Source: a virus. Taken from it: a stretch of 20,165 nt of DNA. Under the pieces are notes generated by a model that did not search any database, was not told the DNA's origin, and saw nothing but the letters and a program-made list of their open reading frames with translations. Positions 1,789 to 19,920 of the stretch are shown piece after piece (position 1 is the stretch's first letter; every line of letters starts with the position of its first letter). The DNA lies in the IMG/VR virus record IMGVR_UViG_3300027896_000284, positions 1-20,165 of that record. The stretch is one strand, 5' to 3'. A program made the translations under genes and the position numbers.

Positions 1789-2042
1789 CCCGGCATTCTT
1801 TCCAGATAGACCTGAACCTTTCCAATGTGCTCAACGGCCAAAAGGATCTCGCCTCGGTCGGCCCATGTGCGTTGCTTCGTGTGAGGGTTCAGGCTGGTGT
1901 AGAACTGGCGAACACAGATGAAGTCGTTTTCGTGCATATGCTCTTGCAACTCTTGCAAGCTCGCTGACGAATGGTCGGCAATGACCTGATGCACCAGATG
2001 ATCCTGAGAAGATCCCATATTCATCGTAAAAAGAAACCGCAT
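1785..2042 (-). CDS. Hypothetical phage protein, 85 aa
   Basis: 85 residues starting MRFLFTMNMGSSQDHLVHQV and continuing with an acidic His-rich middle (LQELQEHMHENDFICVRQFY) and a C-terminal VEHIGKVQVYLE strand. I recall similar proteins in other alphaproteobacterial phages but know no function. A good Shine-Dalgarno (GAGG, five bases before the ATG at 2040-2042) fixes the start. It lies 14 bases downstream of the helicase gene and overlaps the GcrA-like gene by four bases. It is soluble, with no membrane segment. Confidence 0.75.
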   Translation of the reverse strand: MRFLFTMNMGSSQDHLVHQVIADHSSASLQELQEHMHENDFICVRQFYTSLNPHTKQRTWADRGEILLAVEHIGKVQVYLERMPG

Positions 2043-2056
2043 ATTTACCTCGTCAA

Positions 2057-3442
2057 TTAGATGTTTTCCAAAACATCTTGTTTCTGTTTTTGTTTCAGAG
2101 CTTTAAGAAGTTCCCCTTGGGTCGCGTCTTTTTGGGAAAGGACGCGCAAGACACGCTCGTCAATAGTATTCTTTGACGCAATATGAACTATTCGGACGGG
2201 GCGCGTCTGGCCTTGTCGATGCAGTCGGGCATTGAACTGTTGGTAATACTCTAACGACCATGTCAATCCAAACCATACGACAAGCGCGCCCCCGTCCTGA
2301 AGGTTCAGACCATGCCCTGCCGAAGCAGGATGCGCCAGAAGCATTTTTATTTCGCCTCGGTTCCATCTGTCAATCGTGTCTTGTTTTTTGTCTAAAAGTT
2401 CTGCATGTGGAAATTTTTTCTTCAATCTCTCCAAGTCAAATTTGTAGTTATAGGCAACGAGAATTGTCTCATCGGGATTGTCTTCAACGATCTCCTCTAA
2501 GGCGTCCAGTTTGGCCGTATGGATCGCCGACCATGCCCCCGAATCACCGGTGTAAAGAGAACCGTTGGCAAATTGCAGCAGCTTGTTTGCCAGCGCCGCC
2601 GCCGTAATGGCCTCGACCTCCTCGCCATTGTCCAATTCCGCCAACAACGTTTTTTCGAACTCATCGTACTTGTCTTGCGCCGTTGCGGGCATTTCTACAT
2701 ATTCGACAACGTTTATCCTGTTTGGCAAATCAAGATAGTCCTCGGCGCTCATATGAATAACAGACGGGGCAATAAGATTTTGTATTGTTTTAGCGGCCTT
2801 GGGCCTTATAGTCCATTTATAGCCCATGTAATCTTGCTCAAAAAAGCGCTGCTTATATCCCGTCATTGTTCGACCAAGTGATTGCCCAAAGTCAATGAGA
2901 TACATTTGAGCCCAAATGTCTAACAAGCTGTTTGGCGAAGGCGTTCCTGTAAGGAGCGTCATATAATACGTGTGGGGAATAATTCTTCTCAGGGCTTTAA
3001 AGCGTTTGGTCGAGGCGTTTTTAAAAGAACTACTTTCGTCAATTATAACCATGTCGAAGGGCCATTTGTTTTTAAAATGGTCAGCAAGCCAAACGACATT
3101 TTCCCTATTTACTACATACACATCCGCGTCGATTATAAGCCCTTGCAATCTTTTCTTTTCCGATCCTGTGCAAACCGATATTTTCAAATGATTCAAATGG
3201 GCCCATTTTTTTGCCTCTTGCGCCCAAACGCTATTGGCTACACGCAACGGAGCTACAACAAGAACTTTTTTGACCAAAAAACTTTCAATCAAATCCGAAG
3301 CGGCTGTTAAAACAGACACGCTTTTTCCAAGGCCCATAGAAAGAAACAGGCCGCAACGTCGCTTGTCCTTGATGAACTCGACGCATCTTTTTTGATAGGC
3401 GTGCAGATCATTACGAGAAAGCAAGGGCGTCATCCATATCAT
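2057..3442 (-). CDS. SNF2-family DEAD/DEAH-type helicase
   Basis: 461 residues containing both RecA-like halves of a superfamily 2 SNF2-like ATPase. Visible motifs: Q-like LHAYQKR, Walker A MGLGKS (36-41), Ia VLVVAPLRV, Walker B DESS (135-138), motif III TGTPSPNS (165-172), motif V SAGHGLNLQ and motif VI QQFNARLHRQGQ. It probably remodels or unwinds DNA during phage replication or recombination. The pairing with a VRR-NUC nuclease just upstream is common in phage replication modules. It overlaps that gene by 32 bases. ATGs at 3442 and 3433 are both possible and neither has a clear Shine-Dalgarno, so translation is probably coupled. The length is complete for a compact phage SNF2 protein. Confidence 0.92.
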   Translation of the reverse strand: MIWMTPLLSRNDLHAYQKRCVEFIKDKRRCGLFLSMGLGKSVSVLTAASDLIESFLVKKVLVVAPLRVANSVWAQEAKKWAHLNHLKISVCTGSEKKRLQGLIIDADVYVVNRENVVWLADHFKNKWPFDMVIIDESSSFKNASTKRFKALRRIIPHTYYMTLLTGTPSPNSLLDIWAQMYLIDFGQSLGRTMTGYKQRFFEQDYMGYKWTIRPKAAKTIQNLIAPSVIHMSAEDYLDLPNRINVVEYVEMPATAQDKYDEFEKTLLAELDNGEEVEAITAAALANKLLQFANGSLYTGDSGAWSAIHTAKLDALEEIVEDNPDETILVAYNYKFDLERLKKKFPHAELLDKKQDTIDRWNRGEIKMLLAHPASAGHGLNLQDGGALVVWFGLTWSLEYYQQFNARLHRQGQTRPVRIVHIASKNTIDERVLRVLSQKDATQGELLKALKQKQKQDVLENI

Positions 3443-3674
3443 TTATTATAATAACTTCGCAGCCTAGATTACGCCGACGTTCGTGATCCCGCAACTGCAA
3501 CTCGGTTGGTTTTTTGCCTGGCGCTTTGCACTCGACAAAGATGATCCGCCCGCCCGGCAGAGTTACGATGCGGTCGGGAACTGAGCGCCGTCCGGGAGAC
3601 GTGAACTTCTCGCAAAGGCCGCCGAGTTCCTTGACCCGCTTGACTAGCGCCTTCTCAATCTCTTTTTCAAGCAC
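3411..3674 (-). CDS. VRR-NUC domain nuclease
   Basis: 87 residues, essentially one VRR-NUC domain of the PD-(D/E)XK fold. The core is KFTSPGRRSVPDRIV followed by IIFVECKAPGKKPTELQ; the catalytic residues are the Asp of PDR and the Glu-x-Lys of ECK. Stand-alone phage VRR-NUC proteins can act as structure-specific (Holliday-junction type) nucleases, and a role in processing replication or recombination branches is likely. It overlaps the polymerase gene by eight bases and the SNF2 helicase by 32, so all three are probably made together. Confidence 0.92.
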   Translation of the reverse strand: MLEKEIEKALVKRVKELGGLCEKFTSPGRRSVPDRIVTLPGGRIIFVECKAPGKKPTELQLRDHERRRNLGCEVIIINDMDDALAFS

Positions 3675-5457
3675 TGCGCACTCCCAGGTCGGTCAGGGCC
3701 GCCCGCGCCATCTCGACGTAGCGGAACACGTCAACGTCGCTCGGGAACGCCTCTGGCAACGTCATCAGCGGCCTTGCGCCATCAGATCGTGAAACCTTGT
3801 TGCTGTTCTTGGCGTAGGCAATATGTTCGCTGCGCAAAACTTCAGAAGAATAATAAAACCGCACAGCCTTCCCCAGAAACTCGCCCCGCCATTTCCCGCC
3901 GCCATCGACGCGGCGGACGGTCACGAATTTGAGAATGTCCCGGCAATCGCCAATCGTCTTTTCAATGCTCGTGCCTTTGCTCAGATATTCTGCCACGGCA
4001 TCGGTCACAATCGTGAACTCGGGGTTCTTCGCCAGCGTAGGCTCAGAGAACGCGCCCTTGCGCTTTGTCTTTCCGTCCGTCTTGACGGCAATGTAATTGT
4101 TCACGTCGCGGGAATGTAGTGCGGAATAGTCCGACCTTTCCAACTCAAAAGACGTGTAAAGCATCCAGGTGAAAGTCACTTTGTCCATTTCGTCCGACAA
4201 TTCTTTACTGCACAAGACGACGATGCCATCCGTGTTCGCGCTGATGACCTTAACGCCAATCGCTTCGAGCCGTTCAATTAGCATGAGCAAACACAATTGG
4301 CCTGTAATCGTCGTTTGGATCATCAATTCAGGCGCAAATAATGCGCTATACTTACTTCCCAACTTACCAAAGGAACCATTGACAACAATCTTTAATGTAT
4401 CAGCGACAAGCTTATCTCCGCGCTTTTTGGCCTCTAATCTGCGACTGACAATGCTCTGATAAACTTTCAAAAAGTCCTTCCCCATCTTCTTAGGGGACAG
4501 ACGCAACATCAATATGATGCTCGGGTAGTAACTGGCCACGTCGAAGTCGCACAGCATTTCGTCGGCGCTGGCCACAACGCTACGCGACTTCTCGCATGAA
4601 TGTAGGCCACCGACCCCCATTTGATACTCGGTCAAGCCAATCTTAATTTTCGTGTTTTGCAGCCACTCAGGTATTTTGACGGAGCCGTTCGCGCCAATGG
4701 GAAAGCCCGTCTCCAAGATCCGCTTGAATACATCCCGCAGCGTCGGCGTCTCAAAAGACACGATCTTCGGGTCTTTGTAGGCGCAAACATGGTCATCCGG
4801 TAGCGTGATCGGCTTGTATCTGTTGCCTGTCAGCGTCTCCAACTCATGCGCAATCACCGCCTCGGCGATCTGAGCATCCGACTTGGACCGCAGATCTATC
4901 CCGCCGTACTGCGCGCTCATGTCCTCCCGCAGCTTTATCGCGGGCTCCAGCTTCCGATACAGCCGCTCAGTCGTATCCAGATCGTTCGCGCAATAACTCC
5001 TCACGATCTCACGTTGCTCGGGCAAGATCGTGTCGGACGGGATGAACGGAAGATCCTGCATCGTCGGTGCGCCCAAGCGTCCGCCGTAGATCTTAAGACT
5101 TGCCTTGCCCGGAGCGACCTCGATCAAGTCGATATGATCCCAGCGGCCGGCTTTCGGCATTGTAACATTTTGCTCCCGCGCGATCTTCCACGCCGGCAGC
5201 TTGCTGAGGATCAGATCATCACATAACGCCTTCAACTGCTCACAAGACCGCCCCGCCAGAGCCGCCGCGATCATCACAATGTCAAACGAGTTCCCGTTGA
5301 AACTGACCGTCGTATGCGACGACATGTTCCGCGACACGGCCCCGGTGTCGAACTCACGACCCTCAAACAACTCATAGGAGGCGTAACGACCACTGGCCGT
5401 GCTTTTGAACATCAATAGAAAATAGTTGGAATAGACTTCACAGTCCAAGATGAGCAT
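3667..5457 (-). CDS. Family B DNA polymerase with 3'-5' exonuclease motifs
   Basis: 596 residues from the ATG at 5455-5457, which is preceded by GAGG nine bases upstream; a TTG at 5472 would add five residues. The exonuclease motifs are ExoI DCEVY (Asp5/Glu7), ExoII NGNSFD (Asp59) and ExoIII YCANDLD (Asp159). The polymerase motifs are A DVASYYPSI (Asp306), B KIVVNGSFGKLGS and C ANTDG (Asp410). Together they define a proofreading family B enzyme, short for its class. Motif C reads N-T-D where most family B enzymes have D-T-D; the second Asp, a main metal ligand, is kept. It would replicate the phage genome together with the primase-helicase. I see no terminal-protein gene, so protein priming is not indicated. 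Confidence 0.92.
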   Translation of the reverse strand: MLILDCEVYSNYFLLMFKSTASGRYASYELFEGREFDTGAVSRNMSSHTTVSFNGNSFDIVMIAAALAGRSCEQLKALCDDLILSKLPAWKIAREQNVTMPKAGRWDHIDLIEVAPGKASLKIYGGRLGAPTMQDLPFIPSDTILPEQREIVRSYCANDLDTTERLYRKLEPAIKLREDMSAQYGGIDLRSKSDAQIAEAVIAHELETLTGNRYKPITLPDDHVCAYKDPKIVSFETPTLRDVFKRILETGFPIGANGSVKIPEWLQNTKIKIGLTEYQMGVGGLHSCEKSRSVVASADEMLCDFDVASYYPSIILMLRLSPKKMGKDFLKVYQSIVSRRLEAKKRGDKLVADTLKIVVNGSFGKLGSKYSALFAPELMIQTTITGQLCLLMLIERLEAIGVKVISANTDGIVVLCSKELSDEMDKVTFTWMLYTSFELERSDYSALHSRDVNNYIAVKTDGKTKRKGAFSEPTLAKNPEFTIVTDAVAEYLSKGTSIEKTIGDCRDILKFVTVRRVDGGGKWRGEFLGKAVRFYYSSEVLRSEHIAYAKNSNKVSRSDGARPLMTLPEAFPSDVDVFRYVEMARAALTDLGVRSA

Positions 5458-5479
5458 GAAGAGTGTCCTCAATCAAAAA

Positions 5480-5513
5480 CAGAATGGCCCGGCCATTTGA
5501 TAGGCCGGGCCGG
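5480..5513 (-). terminator. Rho-independent terminator between ssDNA-binding protein and polymerase genes
   Basis: A perfect 9-bp GC stem (5486-5494 GGCCCGGCC with 5503-5511) has an 8-base loop. On the minus strand it is followed by ATTCTGTTTTTG. It lies right after the stop of the ssDNA-binding protein gene and would lower expression of the downstream polymerase relative to that protein. Confidence 0.8.
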
Positions 5514-5518
5514 TTCTA

Positions 5519-6073
5519 TCAAACGAAGTCGATTTCTTCATCCCCGTCAACGACATCAAAGTCATCAGCAGACGCCTTGACGCCATCGGCAAACGGCTCA
5601 TCGTCCTTGACGAACTGGACGCCCAACAGGTTCGCGTTGATGCGCTTGCCGTAGTTGTTATTCTGCGCCCAAAGTTCGATCACCGCATTGACGCGACATC
5701 CCGCGTAGATGCGGTTGTCCTCCTCCGTCAGGGGCGACTTGTCGCGATCCAGCACCAAAGGGCGCTTGGTCGAGGACGCCTTGATGCTGATATTCCCAGA
5801 ATATCCAGCGTAATCAATGGTGTCGCCGTCCTTGAGGCAGATCTTGTCGGGCGGCAGCTTCGCGCCCTTCAAGTCGTTCTTCAGAAGATCCCTGATCGCG
5901 GCATTGATTTCCGCAATCTTCGCCGCGCCTTCCTTCTTATCAATCAAGAAAGTGGCCTCGAACTTGGTTTCGTCGCCGTTGAATACAGCCTTACGGAACA
6001 GGCTCGGAAACGAAATCCGCGCGTTGGTGATCATGATCTTCTTGTTGCTCTTTTCGCCGTTCTCATTCGACAT
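5519..6073 (-). CDS. Enc34-type (DUF2815) ssDNA-binding protein
   Basis: 184 residues matching the DUF2815/Enc34 ssDNA-binding family: N-terminal MITNARISFPSLFRK, central FEATFLIDKK, and the CRVNAVIELWAQNNNYGKRI strand region typical of the OB-fold. The tail is strongly acidic (DDFDVVDGDEEIDFV), as in gp2.5 and other phage ssDNA-binding proteins, where the tail contacts replication partners. The start has AAGGGA about eight bases upstream. It sits between the DUF2800 and polymerase genes, the usual place for this family in phage replication modules. The terminator directly downstream fits a protein needed in high amounts. Confidence 0.93.
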   Translation of the reverse strand: MSNENGEKSNKKIMITNARISFPSLFRKAVFNGDETKFEATFLIDKKEGAAKIAEINAAIRDLLKNDLKGAKLPPDKICLKDGDTIDYAGYSGNISIKASSTKRPLVLDRDKSPLTEEDNRIYAGCRVNAVIELWAQNNNYGKRINANLLGVQFVKDDEPFADGVKASADDFDVVDGDEEIDFV

Positions 6074-11800: not shown

Positions 11801-12418
11801 ATGAAAGCCTCCCTTCATATCGAAACCTTGAAAGCCGCCGCCCTCGCCGCCCTCGCCGCATCAAACGAGGAAACCCGCTCTTTTTTGAAAGGGGTTTTGT
11901 GCGAAGTCGAGGAAAACCACGTGACCTACGTGGCGTCCGACGAGCATATCCTTTTTTGCCGGCGGGTCAAGGTTCCTGAGCCGAACACATTGCTTGGGGA
12001 GTTCATCGTTCCATTAACGGCAATTAAGTTGCTGAAGGTCTCGCGTAAAGGCCCATATCAAAACGCAACATACGAAAAAATCACGGCAGATCGAGGAGAA
12101 ATGTATATCCTCGGCGGCGTTGGAGACGCCGAGCCGATTGCCGCAACTTTCCCTCGCTGGCGCGCGATTGTCCCGAGCGCGCCTTATGCGCACGCGATGA
12201 CGGCTAAGCATGGATCATATCAGCTTGACGGATCTAAGCTGGCGGTTTTCAACAAGATCGGCAACGTTCTTGGGTTAGGATCTCCTATGCAAGTCTACAA
12301 TGCGGGCGGACCTACCCTAATCTATTTCGCAGAGGATATTGGCAATTCGCTCGGCCTCGTCATGCCCATGCGGGTCGCTCACGATCCAAAAGTCAATTTT
12401 CGCCCGGAGTGGATATAA
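11801..12418 (+). CDS. Sliding-clamp-like protein (DNA polymerase III beta-related)
   Basis: 205 residues resembling parts of the bacterial beta sliding clamp: EETRSFLKGVLCEVEENHVT followed by YVASDEHILFCRRV matches the clamp pattern tR.yL.GV....d...l.AtDGHrl. The end has a strand and SLGLVMPMR, the family's C-terminal VMPMR motif. At 205 residues it is much shorter than the three-domain host clamp (about 370), so it may form a different oligomer or act as a processivity or decoy factor. It could tether the phage family B polymerase; this is inference. AAGGA stands eight bases before the ATG. The stop overlaps the next ATG by one base (TAATG). Confidence 0.75.
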   Translation: MKASLHIETLKAAALAALAASNEETRSFLKGVLCEVEENHVTYVASDEHILFCRRVKVPEPNTLLGEFIVPLTAIKLLKVSRKGPYQNATYEKITADRGEMYILGGVGDAEPIAATFPRWRAIVPSAPYAHAMTAKHGSYQLDGSKLAVFNKIGNVLGLGSPMQVYNAGGPTLIYFAEDIGNSLGLVMPMRVAHDPKVNFRPEWI

Positions 12419-16597: not shown

Positions 16598-16610
16598 TAT
16601 GAGGATTGAC

Positions 16611-17240
16611 ATGATAGTAGAAGCTATATCTTATAGGGAAGCTGTTGGTCTTTTCGTAAGAAACCACTACTTGCATAGAAGACCAAACGTAGTATTTTCG
16701 TTTGGCTTAGTAAGTGACGGCGAAATAAAGGGCGTGATTACTTTTGGAATACCCGCAAGTCGAGACGCGCAAATAGGGGCGTGCCCATCGTCGCCGAACG
16801 AGGTAATAGAACTTAATCGCCTTTGGGTTTGTGGTAGTATGCCGAGGAATAGCGAAACTTGGTTTATAGCAAAAGAATTTAACAAGATGCCTCCATTTAT
16901 CGTAATAAGCTATGCGGATACTTCTGAAGGTCATATGGGCTACGTTTACCTGGCCGCTAATTTCCGCTATGCCGGGTGGACCGACATGGATCGTAAAACG
17001 CCGAGGTTTGACTATGTTGTACCGGGTAAGCATTCCCGGGATGCGTTCCGTGATGGGGGTCCGAAGTTTACCGAGCGTGTTCGCCGTAAACCAAAAGTGA
17101 GATATTGGACGACTACTGGCAATCGGCGCGAGCGATATTCCCTAGAGCGCAAATGCGAGTGGCCGTCTTTGGATTGGAAAGTTATCCCTTCTCCTGTCGA
17201 GCATAAGACGCTGCGCGCTGTTGTGGGGGGCAATGGGTAA
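16611..17240 (+). CDS. mom: Mom-family adenine modification protein
   Basis: 209 residues matching the Mom family (phage Mu type), a GNAT-like enzyme that converts adenines in phage DNA to N6-methylcarbamoyladenine and so protects against many restriction enzymes. Visible family segments: REAVGLFVRNHYLHRRPNVV, FSFGLVSDGEIKGVITFG, ELNRLWVCGSMPRNS and ISYADTSEGHMGYVYLAANF, then a basic C-terminus (KFTERVRRKPKVRYW). ATG at 16611 with GAGG six bases upstream; an in-frame ATG at 16599 would add four residues. The 3' end overlaps the terminase large-subunit start by eight bases, as if modification and packaging were expressed together. The first half is AT-richer than neighbours, suggesting recent acquisition. 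Confidence 0.85.
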   Translation: MIVEAISYREAVGLFVRNHYLHRRPNVVFSFGLVSDGEIKGVITFGIPASRDAQIGACPSSPNEVIELNRLWVCGSMPRNSETWFIAKEFNKMPPFIVISYADTSEGHMGYVYLAANFRYAGWTDMDRKTPRFDYVVPGKHSRDAFRDGGPKFTERVRRKPKVRYWTTTGNRRERYSLERKCEWPSLDWKVIPSPVEHKTLRAVVGGNG

Positions 17241-19920
17241 GATCAAACTCCCGATCGACATCGACCCAGCTGGCCTTCTCCGCGATCTGGAGATCCAGCG
17301 TTGCGAGCGAAGCCTTGCCTATTTCATTCGCCGGGCATGGTCGCAGATCGAACCCGGCCAGCCCTATGTCCACAACTGGCACGTAGACATGATCTGCGAG
17401 CATTTGGAGGCGATCACCAACGGCGTCGAGATAGACGGGAAGCCATACAATCGCCTCCTTATCAACGTCCCGCCCGGTACGATGAAGTCGCTACTTTTGA
17501 ACGTCTTCTGGCCGGCATGGGAATGGGGGCCGCGAAACATGCCACATATGCGGTACGTTTGCGCCGCGCATAAGGTAGAAAACCTTTCAGCCCGCGACTC
17601 GCGCCGCATGCGCCAACTCATTACGTCGGAATGGTATCAGAGCTTATGGGGCAGCCGGGTCAGCCTCGCCAAAGACCAAAACGAGAAACTGAACTTCGTC
17701 AATTCAGCGAACGGCTTTCGCATTGCGACCGCCATCACGTCGCTGACCGGCATACGCGGCGACCGCGTTCTTTGTTTTCCTTATGATGAAGTTGTTCATA
17801 CAGAATATGGTAAATTAAAAATAGGAGAAATGGTAAAGTCAAAAATTAAAGTAAAAGTGTTTTCTTCTTTACCCGGAAGTAACGTAGTTGAATTGAAAGA
17901 AATTTTGAACTGGAAAGAAAATCCCGGTAGCCCGATTGTTGAGGTCGGGCTATCGGATGGTTCAACATTCAGATGCACGCCAGATCACAAAGTTTGGACC
18001 TCATCTGGATGGGTCGAGGCCGCGTCTCTTAATCCCGGTCACGTGCTGCCAAGCATGACCGTTGCGGATAGACCATATGGCCCTAGGGCTGACGCCGTAT
18101 TTTCGCGCCAAAACCCGTTGCGGTTCTTTGGACTTGCTAATGAAAATAGCGTCTTCAGAAGTTATTTTAGATTGTCCAGATTTTTCACCTCTAATATAAT
18201 AATCTCTTTTGGGAATATCTTTAGTAAATTCTCCCCAAAGTCTTCTGTTTCTTATGTGCTCAACAGTCCCATGGTCAATTCCGTATCTTTCGGCGAGAAC
18301 GTAAGCTGTTTCTTCACTTCGAATGATTATTCTTGCAATTTTCCTGTTGATTTTGGCTCCCGGACGTTTTTCTCCTACAGGAAAAGTTCCGTTCCTCTTG
18401 GCGTCGGCAATGTTTTCCGACCGAGTTCCATATTCAAGGTTATCAAGTCTGGCATCCCCTCTGTTTCCGTTTTTGTGTCTGACTTCTTGTCCCGGAAGCG
18501 GGGGGCCTTTGAAAGCCAACATAACAACTTGATGGACAAAAAACTGAGTGGAGATCCCGTTTATGTTCGCATTAAATTTGGGATATCCCTTTGTTGGCGG
18601 GGTTTTAATGATTTTTTCTTTAATCGTAAGGGTTCCTCGCCCTTCACGGGGGACGATGCGGAATTCGCTGCGGATGCGGCCGAGATTGCTGACACTGTAA
18701 AACCCTTCAAAGCCGGGGATCGGTTTCCAATTTTCGTTCGGCAAATCGGTCATGCGGAAAACACCTTCTGCTTGGAGGTAGAAGACAATCATACCTTCTT
18801 TGTGGGAAAAGGCGATGGGGTCCTTGTCTCCAACTGTGACGATCCACATTCTGTTGATTCGGCGATCTCCGAAGTCCAACGTCAAGCTGAAGTGAGCAAT
18901 TTTCTCGAAGCCATCCCGACCCGCCTAACCAATCCCCTCACGTCCGCAATCGTGGTCATCATGCAGCGCCTGCACGAGGATGATGTGTCGGGCGCGATTC
19001 TCGACAACAAGCTCGGCTATGATCATATTATGCTGCCAATGCGCTACGATAAGCGCCGCGCTGGCCCGACTATGCTAGGGACCATTGATCCTCGCGAGGA
19101 AGATGGCGAGCTTCTATTCCCCGAGCGGTTTCCTGAAGAGGTCGTGGCTCGCGACGAGCGCACCATGGGGCCTTACGCCACAGCGTCACAATTCCAGCAG
19201 GAGCCTGTTCCCAGAGGCGGCGGCATCATCAAAGACGATTGGTGGCAGTTATGGGTCGAGGCCGAGTTCCCGCCGATGGATTTCATCCTTGCTAGTCTCG
19301 ACACGGCCTATACGACAAAGCAAGAAAACGACTATAGCGCGCTCACTATATGGGGAGTATTTACGGCTGACACTAAAGCCAAAATAACTAAAACGATGAC
19401 GCGATACGGCACAATACAACAAATGGAAAGAGTATACGAAGAAGGCGCTCCAAGCGTTATGCTAATGTACGCTTTTCAAGAGCGTCTAGAGTTTCCAGAT
19501 CTTTTAAAGAAAGTATCTAATACTTGCAAATCTTTCAAAGTTGACAAGTTGATTATTGAAAACAAGGCGGCGGGCATCAGCCTTGCGCAGGAATTGCGCC
19601 GCTCGTTCAGCATCGAGGATTACGGCATCCAGCTTGTCGATCCCAAGGGCGGGGACAAGCTGGCGCGGCTTTATAGCGTGCAGCACCTGTTCAGCGAAGG
19701 CATGATCTGGGCACCGGACAAAGAATGGTCGGAGATGGTCATCCGGCAAACGTCATCATTCCCCAAAGGAAAACATGACGATTTGGTCGACTCCCTATCC
19801 CAGGGCTTGCGTCATCTTCGCGAAGCAGGCCTTTTGACACGCTCTATTGAGCGTATTGCAGAAATAGACCGGAATAAGGTATACAGGGGAGGCAAGCCGC
19901 CGCCATTGTATCCGGCCTAG
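17233..19920 (+). CDS. terL: Terminase large subunit precursor containing an intein
   Basis: 895-residue precursor from ATG 17233 (a TTG at 17221 would add four). The exteins are 180 and 361 residues, so the spliced product is 541 residues, normal for this protein. ATPase Walker A is PPGTMKS (80-86). Walker B would be formed only after splicing (GDRVL joined to CDDPHS). The RNase H-like nuclease has Asp690 (SLDTAY), Glu776 (LIIENKAAG) and Asp849/Asp850 (KHDDLVDS), in precursor numbering. It cuts and pumps phage DNA into capsids. The intein occupies residues 181-534. Bases about 19315-19560 (between nuclease motifs I and II) are clearly AT-richer than the flanks. Overlaps Mom by eight bases; the portal gene follows 11 bases after the TAG stop. 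Confidence 0.95.
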   Translation: MGKIKLPIDIDPAGLLRDLEIQRCERSLAYFIRRAWSQIEPGQPYVHNWHVDMICEHLEAITNGVEIDGKPYNRLLINVPPGTMKSLLLNVFWPAWEWGPRNMPHMRYVCAAHKVENLSARDSRRMRQLITSEWYQSLWGSRVSLAKDQNEKLNFVNSANGFRIATAITSLTGIRGDRVLCFPYDEVVHTEYGKLKIGEMVKSKIKVKVFSSLPGSNVVELKEILNWKENPGSPIVEVGLSDGSTFRCTPDHKVWTSSGWVEAASLNPGHVLPSMTVADRPYGPRADAVFSRQNPLRFFGLANENSVFRSYFRLSRFFTSNIIISFGNIFSKFSPKSSVSYVLNSPMVNSVSFGENVSCFFTSNDYSCNFPVDFGSRTFFSYRKSSVPLGVGNVFRPSSIFKVIKSGIPSVSVFVSDFLSRKRGAFESQHNNLMDKKLSGDPVYVRIKFGISLCWRGFNDFFFNRKGSSPFTGDDAEFAADAAEIADTVKPFKAGDRFPIFVRQIGHAENTFCLEVEDNHTFFVGKGDGVLVSNCDDPHSVDSAISEVQRQAEVSNFLEAIPTRLTNPLTSAIVVIMQRLHEDDVSGAILDNKLGYDHIMLPMRYDKRRAGPTMLGTIDPREEDGELLFPERFPEEVVARDERTMGPYATASQFQQEPVPRGGGIIKDDWWQLWVEAEFPPMDFILASLDTAYTTKQENDYSALTIWGVFTADTKAKITKTMTRYGTIQQMERVYEEGAPSVMLMYAFQERLEFPDLLKKVSNTCKSFKVDKLIIENKAAGISLAQELRRSFSIEDYGIQLVDPKGGDKLARLYSVQHLFSEGMIWAPDKEWSEMVIRQTSSFPKGKHDDLVDSLSQGLRHLREAGLLTRSIERIAEIDRNKVYRGGKPPPLYPA
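17773..18834 (+). mobile_element. Intein in the terminase Walker B motif, with antisense homing gene inside
   Basis: 354 residues. Starts with Cys1 (CFPYDEVVHTEYGKLKIGEM, block A). Block B is FRCTPDHKVWTSSGW with Thr69 and His72. The C-terminal block F is CLEVEDNHTFFVG (His340). It ends VLVSN with Asn354 followed by extein Cys. These are the residues needed for Cys-type protein splicing, except that the usual penultimate His is Ser here. No LAGLIDADG or HNH motif exists in the sense frame. Residues 77-327 are instead the reverse-complement translation of the endonuclease gene on the other strand, a Ser/Phe-rich, otherwise unfamiliar stretch. The first 130 bases are much more AT-rich than the host gene, a sign of foreign origin. 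Splicing itself is inferred from the motifs. Confidence 0.93.
18001..18753 (-). CDS. HNH homing endonuclease (NUMOD4-HNH-HTH), antisense within the intein
   Basis: 250 residues. NUMOD4 at 6-30 (ENWKPIPGFEGFYSVSNLGR). The HNH domain has His74 (FFVHQVV), His93 (VRHKNGNRGD) and Asn105 (LDNLEY). Two HTH DNA-binding modules follow, about 132-178 (LAERYGIDHGTVEHIRNR) and 194-240 (LARKYGVSPRAIWSIRNG). The whole gene lies inside the intein on the opposite strand. Start chosen at the ATG 18751-18753 because AGAAGG lies ten bases upstream and NUMOD4 begins at once; an open extension to 18885 would run into the extein and carries no domain. A lone -10-like TATGAT lies at 18793-18788. The enzyme would cut intein-less terminase genes and drive homing of the element; specificity is inferred. 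Confidence 0.93.
   Translation of the reverse strand: MTDLPNENWKPIPGFEGFYSVSNLGRIRSEFRIVPREGRGTLTIKEKIIKTPPTKGYPKFNANINGISTQFFVHQVVMLAFKGPPLPGQEVRHKNGNRGDARLDNLEYGTRSENIADAKRNGTFPVGEKRPGAKINRKIARIIIRSEETAYVLAERYGIDHGTVEHIRNRRLWGEFTKDIPKRDYYIRGEKSGQSKITSEDAIFISKSKEPQRVLARKYGVSPRAIWSIRNGHAWQHVTGIKRRGLDPSR

Follow-up and report, generated by a model that had tools for sequence, protein, structure and literature searches.

We analyzed a 20,165-nucleotide stretch of viral DNA (the window), positions 1 to 20,165 of the IMG/VR record IMGVR_UViG_3300027896_000284. Its gene for the terminase large subunit, terL, is interrupted by an intein, and a homing endonuclease gene lies on the opposite strand of that intein. 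The features of the locus are as follows.

17233..19920, + strand: terL, terminase large subunit, intein-interrupted, 895-aa precursor and 541 aa without the intein (phrog_38, TIGR01630)
17742..17772, + strand: GIRGDRVL, the left insertion flank, immediately preceding the Walker B motif (comparison with MW202675)
17773..18834, + strand: intein of 354 aa, Cys1 to Asn354, followed by Cys+1 (profiles, predicted Hint fold)
17773..18060, + strand: Hint N-terminal part with blocks A/N1 and B/N3 (CFPYDEV..., CTPDHKVW; intein_Nterm at residues 1-76, pLDDT about 95 over residues 1-90)
18001..18753, − strand: nested antisense homing endonuclease gene, ATG at 18753 to TGA at 18001, with NUMOD4, HNH_3 and two HTH-like repeats (profiles, fold)
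18064..18714, + strand: intein-strand reading of the endonuclease gene, a linker predicted to be disordered and kept open only (pLDDT about 30 over residues 98-314; codon-position flip)
18715..18834, + strand: Hint C-terminal part, TFCLEVEDNHTFFV...VLVSN (intein_Cterm at residues 331-354; pLDDT 91-96 from residue 321)
18761..18769, − strand: Shine-Dalgarno-like AGAAGGTG, upstream of the antisense ATG and opposite the Hint TFC codons (family enrichment)
18835..18864, + strand: right flank of the insertion, CDDPHSVDSA, with Cys+1 where the empty allele has Ile

The terL start at ATG 17233 was picked by eye, and a longer ORF from TTG 17221 is possible. The terL start is overlapped by the end of a gene for a Mom-like DNA modification protein (16599-17240, + strand; Pfam Mom, 1.9e-28). 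Elsewhere in the window, an ORF at 11801-12418 (+ strand) matches both a RusA-like resolvase family (phrog_3007) and a sliding-clamp domain (DNA_pol3_beta_2).

In profile searches, the terL product matched phrog_38 (8.1e-73) and TIGR01630 (3.8e-12). The intein matched TIGR01445 intein_Nterm (2.5e-12) and TIGR01443 intein_Cterm (3.9e-5), both above the NCBIfam cut-off, and Pfam Intein_splicing at 4.2e-7 but below that model's own gathering score. It fulfills the class 1 Hint criteria with C1, the TxxH of block B (CTPDH), N354 and a +1 Cys, its end reading VLVSN and then C. No nuclease family was matched in the intein frame by Pfam and PHROG profile searches, and the in-frame criterion of canonical endonuclease-bearing inteins is not met. 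On the opposite strand, the gene of 250 codons plus TGA matched HNH_3 (4.1e-13) and NUMOD4 (1.6e-12), both above the Pfam cut-offs, as well as phrog_59 (3.4e-52) and I-HmuI (4.1e-9). The two frames are codon-aligned, each the exact codon-by-codon complement of the other. TTA, CTA and TCA codons in the endonuclease are stops on the intein strand, and the antisense gene of the window has none of them; across the nested region, the sense strand contains 0 stops in the intein frame and 7 and 22 in the other two frames.

The original prediction, made from the letters alone, had claimed complete splicing blocks at both ends, no endonuclease motif in the intein's own frame, and an intact antisense NUMOD4-HNH-HTH gene. 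All of this was borne out, as were its coordinates, register, boundaries and product lengths, each frame matching its own profile. The doubt that a sequencing error had produced one of the frames could be set aside as unlikely, because near-identical DNA occurs in two IMG/VR contigs from other samples, one with 3 mismatches over 2,286 bp, the other with 2 over 1,539 bp.

Structure prediction agreed with the profiles. The AlphaFold (AF2) model of the intein, built with a 23-row family alignment, had pLDDT above 90 in both Hint blocks; residues 98-314, which lie opposite the nuclease gene, scored about 30. It had 46 PDB matches at E up to 0.001, the top ones being inteins and the best the Npu DnaE intein (2.8e-7). 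The AlphaFold model of the nuclease (pLDDT 82) matched I-HmuI in Foldseek (E 2.5e-7), and VIA-align superposed the two with Z 14.0, rmsd 2.1 and 32% identity over 104 residues. The models thus predict a confident Hint fold, a disordered linker and an I-HmuI-like nuclease. Hint domains seem to tolerate loops of more than 200 arbitrary residues, a property useful for protein engineering.

To define recurrence, we counted a locus if an intact antisense endonuclease lay within an uninterrupted terL-intein ORF. The queries for IMG/VR were the intein, a profile of inteins and several endonucleases; phage records were searched by tblastn, and GTDB contigs in a further search. This search of terL inteins for antisense HNH frames yielded 20 distinct and diverse phage or prophage contigs (the window, L001, L003, L004, L005, L012, L013, L022, L023, L026, L027, L029, L030, L047, L084, L097, L098, L111, L112 and L114), with terL as the host gene and the same register in all 20. 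The single tblastn match in phage records was Escherichia phage BUCT618, whose terL intein bears the same antisense gene; the locus is annotated solely as terminase and the antisense gene was missed, an example of how annotation can overlook such nested genes. Neither the BUCT618 terL DNA nor its intein had a match in E. coli genomes and plasmids. L084 is a Clostridia MAG with the antisense form, and the only one of 391 Clostridia genomes to have it.

Intein queries favor open sense frames by ascertainment. Endonuclease queries led to seven members (L012, L013, L097, L098, L111, L112 and L114), which turned out to sit inside inteins; because they were found in this way, they were not selected for an open sense frame, and endonuclease-only queries gave the same picture. 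The antisense stop falls 73-86 residues after Cys1 in 20/20 loci; the ATG in most of them precedes the intein end by about 25-29 residues, a few of these distances being measured to an earlier SN/HN motif and hence too short. The insertion point shifts among loci by up to a few residues near the Walker B motif. NUMOD4 and HNH_3 were matched by 20/20 endonucleases and intein_Nterm by 24/24 inteins. Within the family, C1, the block-B T and H, the last N and the +1 Cys are conserved in the sense frame, and the antisense frame has invariant H93, N105 and N114. A frame break in L099 lies at a short contig end, in a sample with near-copies of the L026 phage, and was not scored as a broken copy.

Two members showed further peculiarities. 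The largest antisense nuclease (L047:2154-3137, − strand; 328 aa) has extra sequence past the usual end, apparently more HTH-like repeats. In L114 (reverse strand, 1807-5559), the terL ORF of 1,251 aa has, beside the antisense-bearing intein, another pair of matches, weaker ones, to the N and C blocks of inteins.

The two frames are under different constraints along the insert. In all seven pairs compared, differences peak at sense codon position 3 in the exteins and the Hint N block, and inside the nested gene at sense position 1, which is endonuclease position 3. Between the window and L003, for example, differences at sense positions 1/2/3 number 15/13/42 in the Hint N block and 142/38/62 in the nested region. 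Over the same codons, the seven pairs share 59-93% identity in the endonuclease and 34-74% in the sense reading. By these patterns, selection acts on the Hint blocks as parts of an intein and on the middle, where the codon positions switch, as an endonuclease; there the intein frame is simply held open.

Clean empty sites were found for two members. The terL of MW202675, the counterpart of the window, reads GDRVI|IDDPHSVD, and Pseudomonas phage MR14 provides the counterpart of BUCT618. These empty terL genes are about 64-67% alike to the occupied ones, and the expectation of occupied and empty alleles at one site is met. Near-identical pairs of occupied and empty alleles were not found, and recent homing is for this reason not shown. 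Among mini-inteins, L007 lacks the HNH and retains the HTH part, L031 and L085 carry antisense remnants, and L032 has no remnant; they look like later stages of the homing cycle. The Hint, endonuclease and terL trees share many groups, and L029 is placed differently by terL and by the element. For the most part the element has branched as terL has, which suggests that it seldom moves between distant terL genes; L029 is the clearest exception. Our inference is that nesting took place long ago, once or twice, and that the element was afterwards passed on mainly by vertical descent.

Putative translation start signals were also seen for the nuclease. At least five matched Shine-Dalgarno bases precede the antisense start in 9/20 loci, compared with 1.4% of background antisense ATGs (p = 6e-10, uncorrected for relatedness and therefore too small). 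The strings, such as AAAGGAG (L004, L005 and L084) and AGGAGGT (L027, L098 and L111), sit opposite Hint codons, which are [TS][FY]C in most members.

On this basis, we propose the following mechanism. On the + strand, terL would be translated straight through the insert, and a Hint domain of about 92 N-terminal and 40 C-terminal residues would close round a long disordered loop and splice the intein out, leaving intact terminase. From the − strand of the same DNA, a free I-HmuI-like HNH homing endonuclease would be made, starting at an ATG opposite the codon about 27 residues before the intein end and using a Shine-Dalgarno-like signal that is the antisense of Hint codons. The targets of the nuclease would be terL alleles without the intein, nicked or cut close to the Walker B codons; repair templated by the occupied allele would then carry over both intein and nuclease. 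That nuclease and terminase would come from separate transcripts, with their expression decoupled, as the original prediction proposed, follows from the geometry, with expression itself inferred.

We are confident that the insert in the terL of the window and its relatives is a mobile terminase intein of distinct architecture. Computation established the two frames with their profiles and folds, the selection acting on each, the recurrence at 20 loci, the empty allele and the decayed copies; splicing, antisense transcription, DNA cleavage and homing are inferred. With moderate confidence, we further read the family as an old, recurrent antisense-overprinted homing gene in phage terminase inteins, in which the two directions of one DNA stretch encode a splicing scaffold and its mobility nuclease. 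On this reading, the Hint codons also supply the Shine-Dalgarno signal of the nuclease, whose expression is no longer tied to the late expression of terminase. A second, same-strand form of overprint in other terL inteins, apparently of separate origin, points to overprinting as a general means for inteins to carry nucleases.

In this second arrangement, an HNH_3 gene, in most cases with CxxC motifs, lies on the same strand in another frame (the relative frame being constant) inside Hint-bearing terL-type ORFs. It was seen at L009:5084-5749, L036:3180-3632, L048:1218-1877, L053:3216-3836 and L066:3129-3734, in 53 of the 80 loci L141-L220, and in Tetrasphaera phage TJE1 (L129) and Acinetobacter phage Highwayman (L130), both annotated only as terminase. 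Diverged pairs of this class share 56-63% identity in the HNH gene versus 27-34% in the intein frame. At L089:336-2304, a terminase ORF ends in an intein N-part and is followed by a same-strand HNH ORF, possibly a split intein.

The antisense form could be a mere strand variant of known out-of-frame HNH genes in terL inteins and phage methylases, its orientation having no special meaning. We regard this as unlikely, though it remains a possibility to be reckoned with. The putative intein-encoded, out-of-frame HNH gene of brucellaphage terL (PMC4422536) and the ShiLan element in a methylase (PMC11855218) speak for it, as does the second HNH family, in which 53 of 80 best matches are same-strand and out of frame in Hint-bearing ORFs. 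However, the antisense nucleases belong to a different family with NUMOD4 and HTH repeats, an opposite-strand gene requires its own transcript, and the register is fixed and codon-aligned. Nested endonucleases also cluster against free-standing homologues (2 label changes versus 10.4 when shuffled), and no nesting event common to both classes was seen, although without a tree test.

It is improbable that the antisense endonuclease is an unexpressed relic and the element now a vertically inherited intein. Consistent with such a relic, no clear antisense promoter was found: the best −10 matches in the intein were no better than those in shuffles (median p 0.57), and a promoter scan of the window gave nothing near the antisense start. 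The element trees also largely track terL, and copies have decayed at three loci. Yet the endonuclease frame is conserved with a position-3 bias of its own, and the ATG, the Shine-Dalgarno-like site and the HNH residues are intact in 20 loci.

Still less plausible is an HNH gene inserted in terL whose sense frame is open through chance codon usage, the intein being dead or absent. The predicted disorder of the intein-strand linker would suit a non-functional sense reading, and in GC-rich genes antisense in-register frames are often open. However, TTA, CTA and TCA account for 0 of 4,657 codons in the nested genes versus 54 of 1,854 in free-standing homologues, with at least one such codon in 0/20 and 12/13 genes, respectively (Fisher 4e-8). 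Computed from each terL's own codon usage, the chance of having none is about 1e-7 to 1e-10 in each of the four most telling, AT-rich loci (L022, L023, L029 and L047). Because 20 distinct loci contain no forbidden codon, the double frame of the window is not a chance event. The splicing residues and Hint fold are also conserved in all members, the Hint N block has a sense-frame position-3 pattern, and terL is normally essential. Removal of the insert at the RNA level as an intron can be practically discounted: NUMOD4-HNH nucleases, including I-HmuI, are common in group I introns, but the Hint blocks are complete and the sense frame is open throughout. An Rfam search of 17200-19500 on either strand at E up to 1 gave no match to a group I intron or other RNA.

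The antisense-overprinted intein is the preferred reading. Its two genes overlap at length on opposite strands, each product is of a known domain family, and selection on both frames shows in 20 loci, a rare combination for antisense overlaps. The pact between intein and nuclease needs no fused protein, and these loci provide a natural test case for the invasion of an intein by a nuclease gene.

In canonical large inteins with an in-frame LAGLIDADG or HNH domain, the sequence coding for the endonuclease likewise interrupts Hint between blocks B and F. They home by cutting empty sites, a mode that we infer here too, whereas the endonuclease of the window is a separate opposite-strand protein and its intein polypeptide has none. 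I-HmuI, the endonuclease of a group I intron in Bacillus phage SPO1, shares the NUMOD4-HNH-HTH layout but is encoded in an RNA intron on the sense strand. Dassa and colleagues in 2009 reportedly described fractured genes in which the two halves of a split intein flank a free-standing endonuclease gene. There, as in the window, the endonuclease is apart from the intein polypeptide yet inside the element; the intein, however, is split and trans-spliced, whereas that of the window is contiguous with the gene nested antisense. The original prediction had named group I introns with reverse-oriented homing genes as the nearest idea, which need not be dismissed but is not the only one, as same-strand out-of-frame HNH genes are published. 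In brucellaphage terL, an HNH gene termed intein-encoded overlaps the middle of terL out of frame, as in the window, but it is listed as forward and described with zinc-binding sites, like the same-strand class, and no opposite-strand case is given (PMC4422536). In the ShiLan element, similarly, an actinobacteriophage methylase carries an insert through which the host frame is open and on which an HNH homing gene is overprinted (PMC11855218). It differs in being on the same strand, without Hint and with no splicing expected; the window, with its opposite strand and Hint, does not meet a ShiLan-type criterion. The claim that no intein of this arrangement is known held insofar as no opposite-strand case was found in the literature searched, which did not cover a 2025 preprint on non-canonical intein architecture (10.1101/2025.01.02.630785), but the window is a member of a recurrent family and not a lone oddity. 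Intein and nuclease are both of known families; subject to possible overlap with that preprint, what is new relative to the nearest published cases is their nesting on opposite strands with a different type of nuclease.
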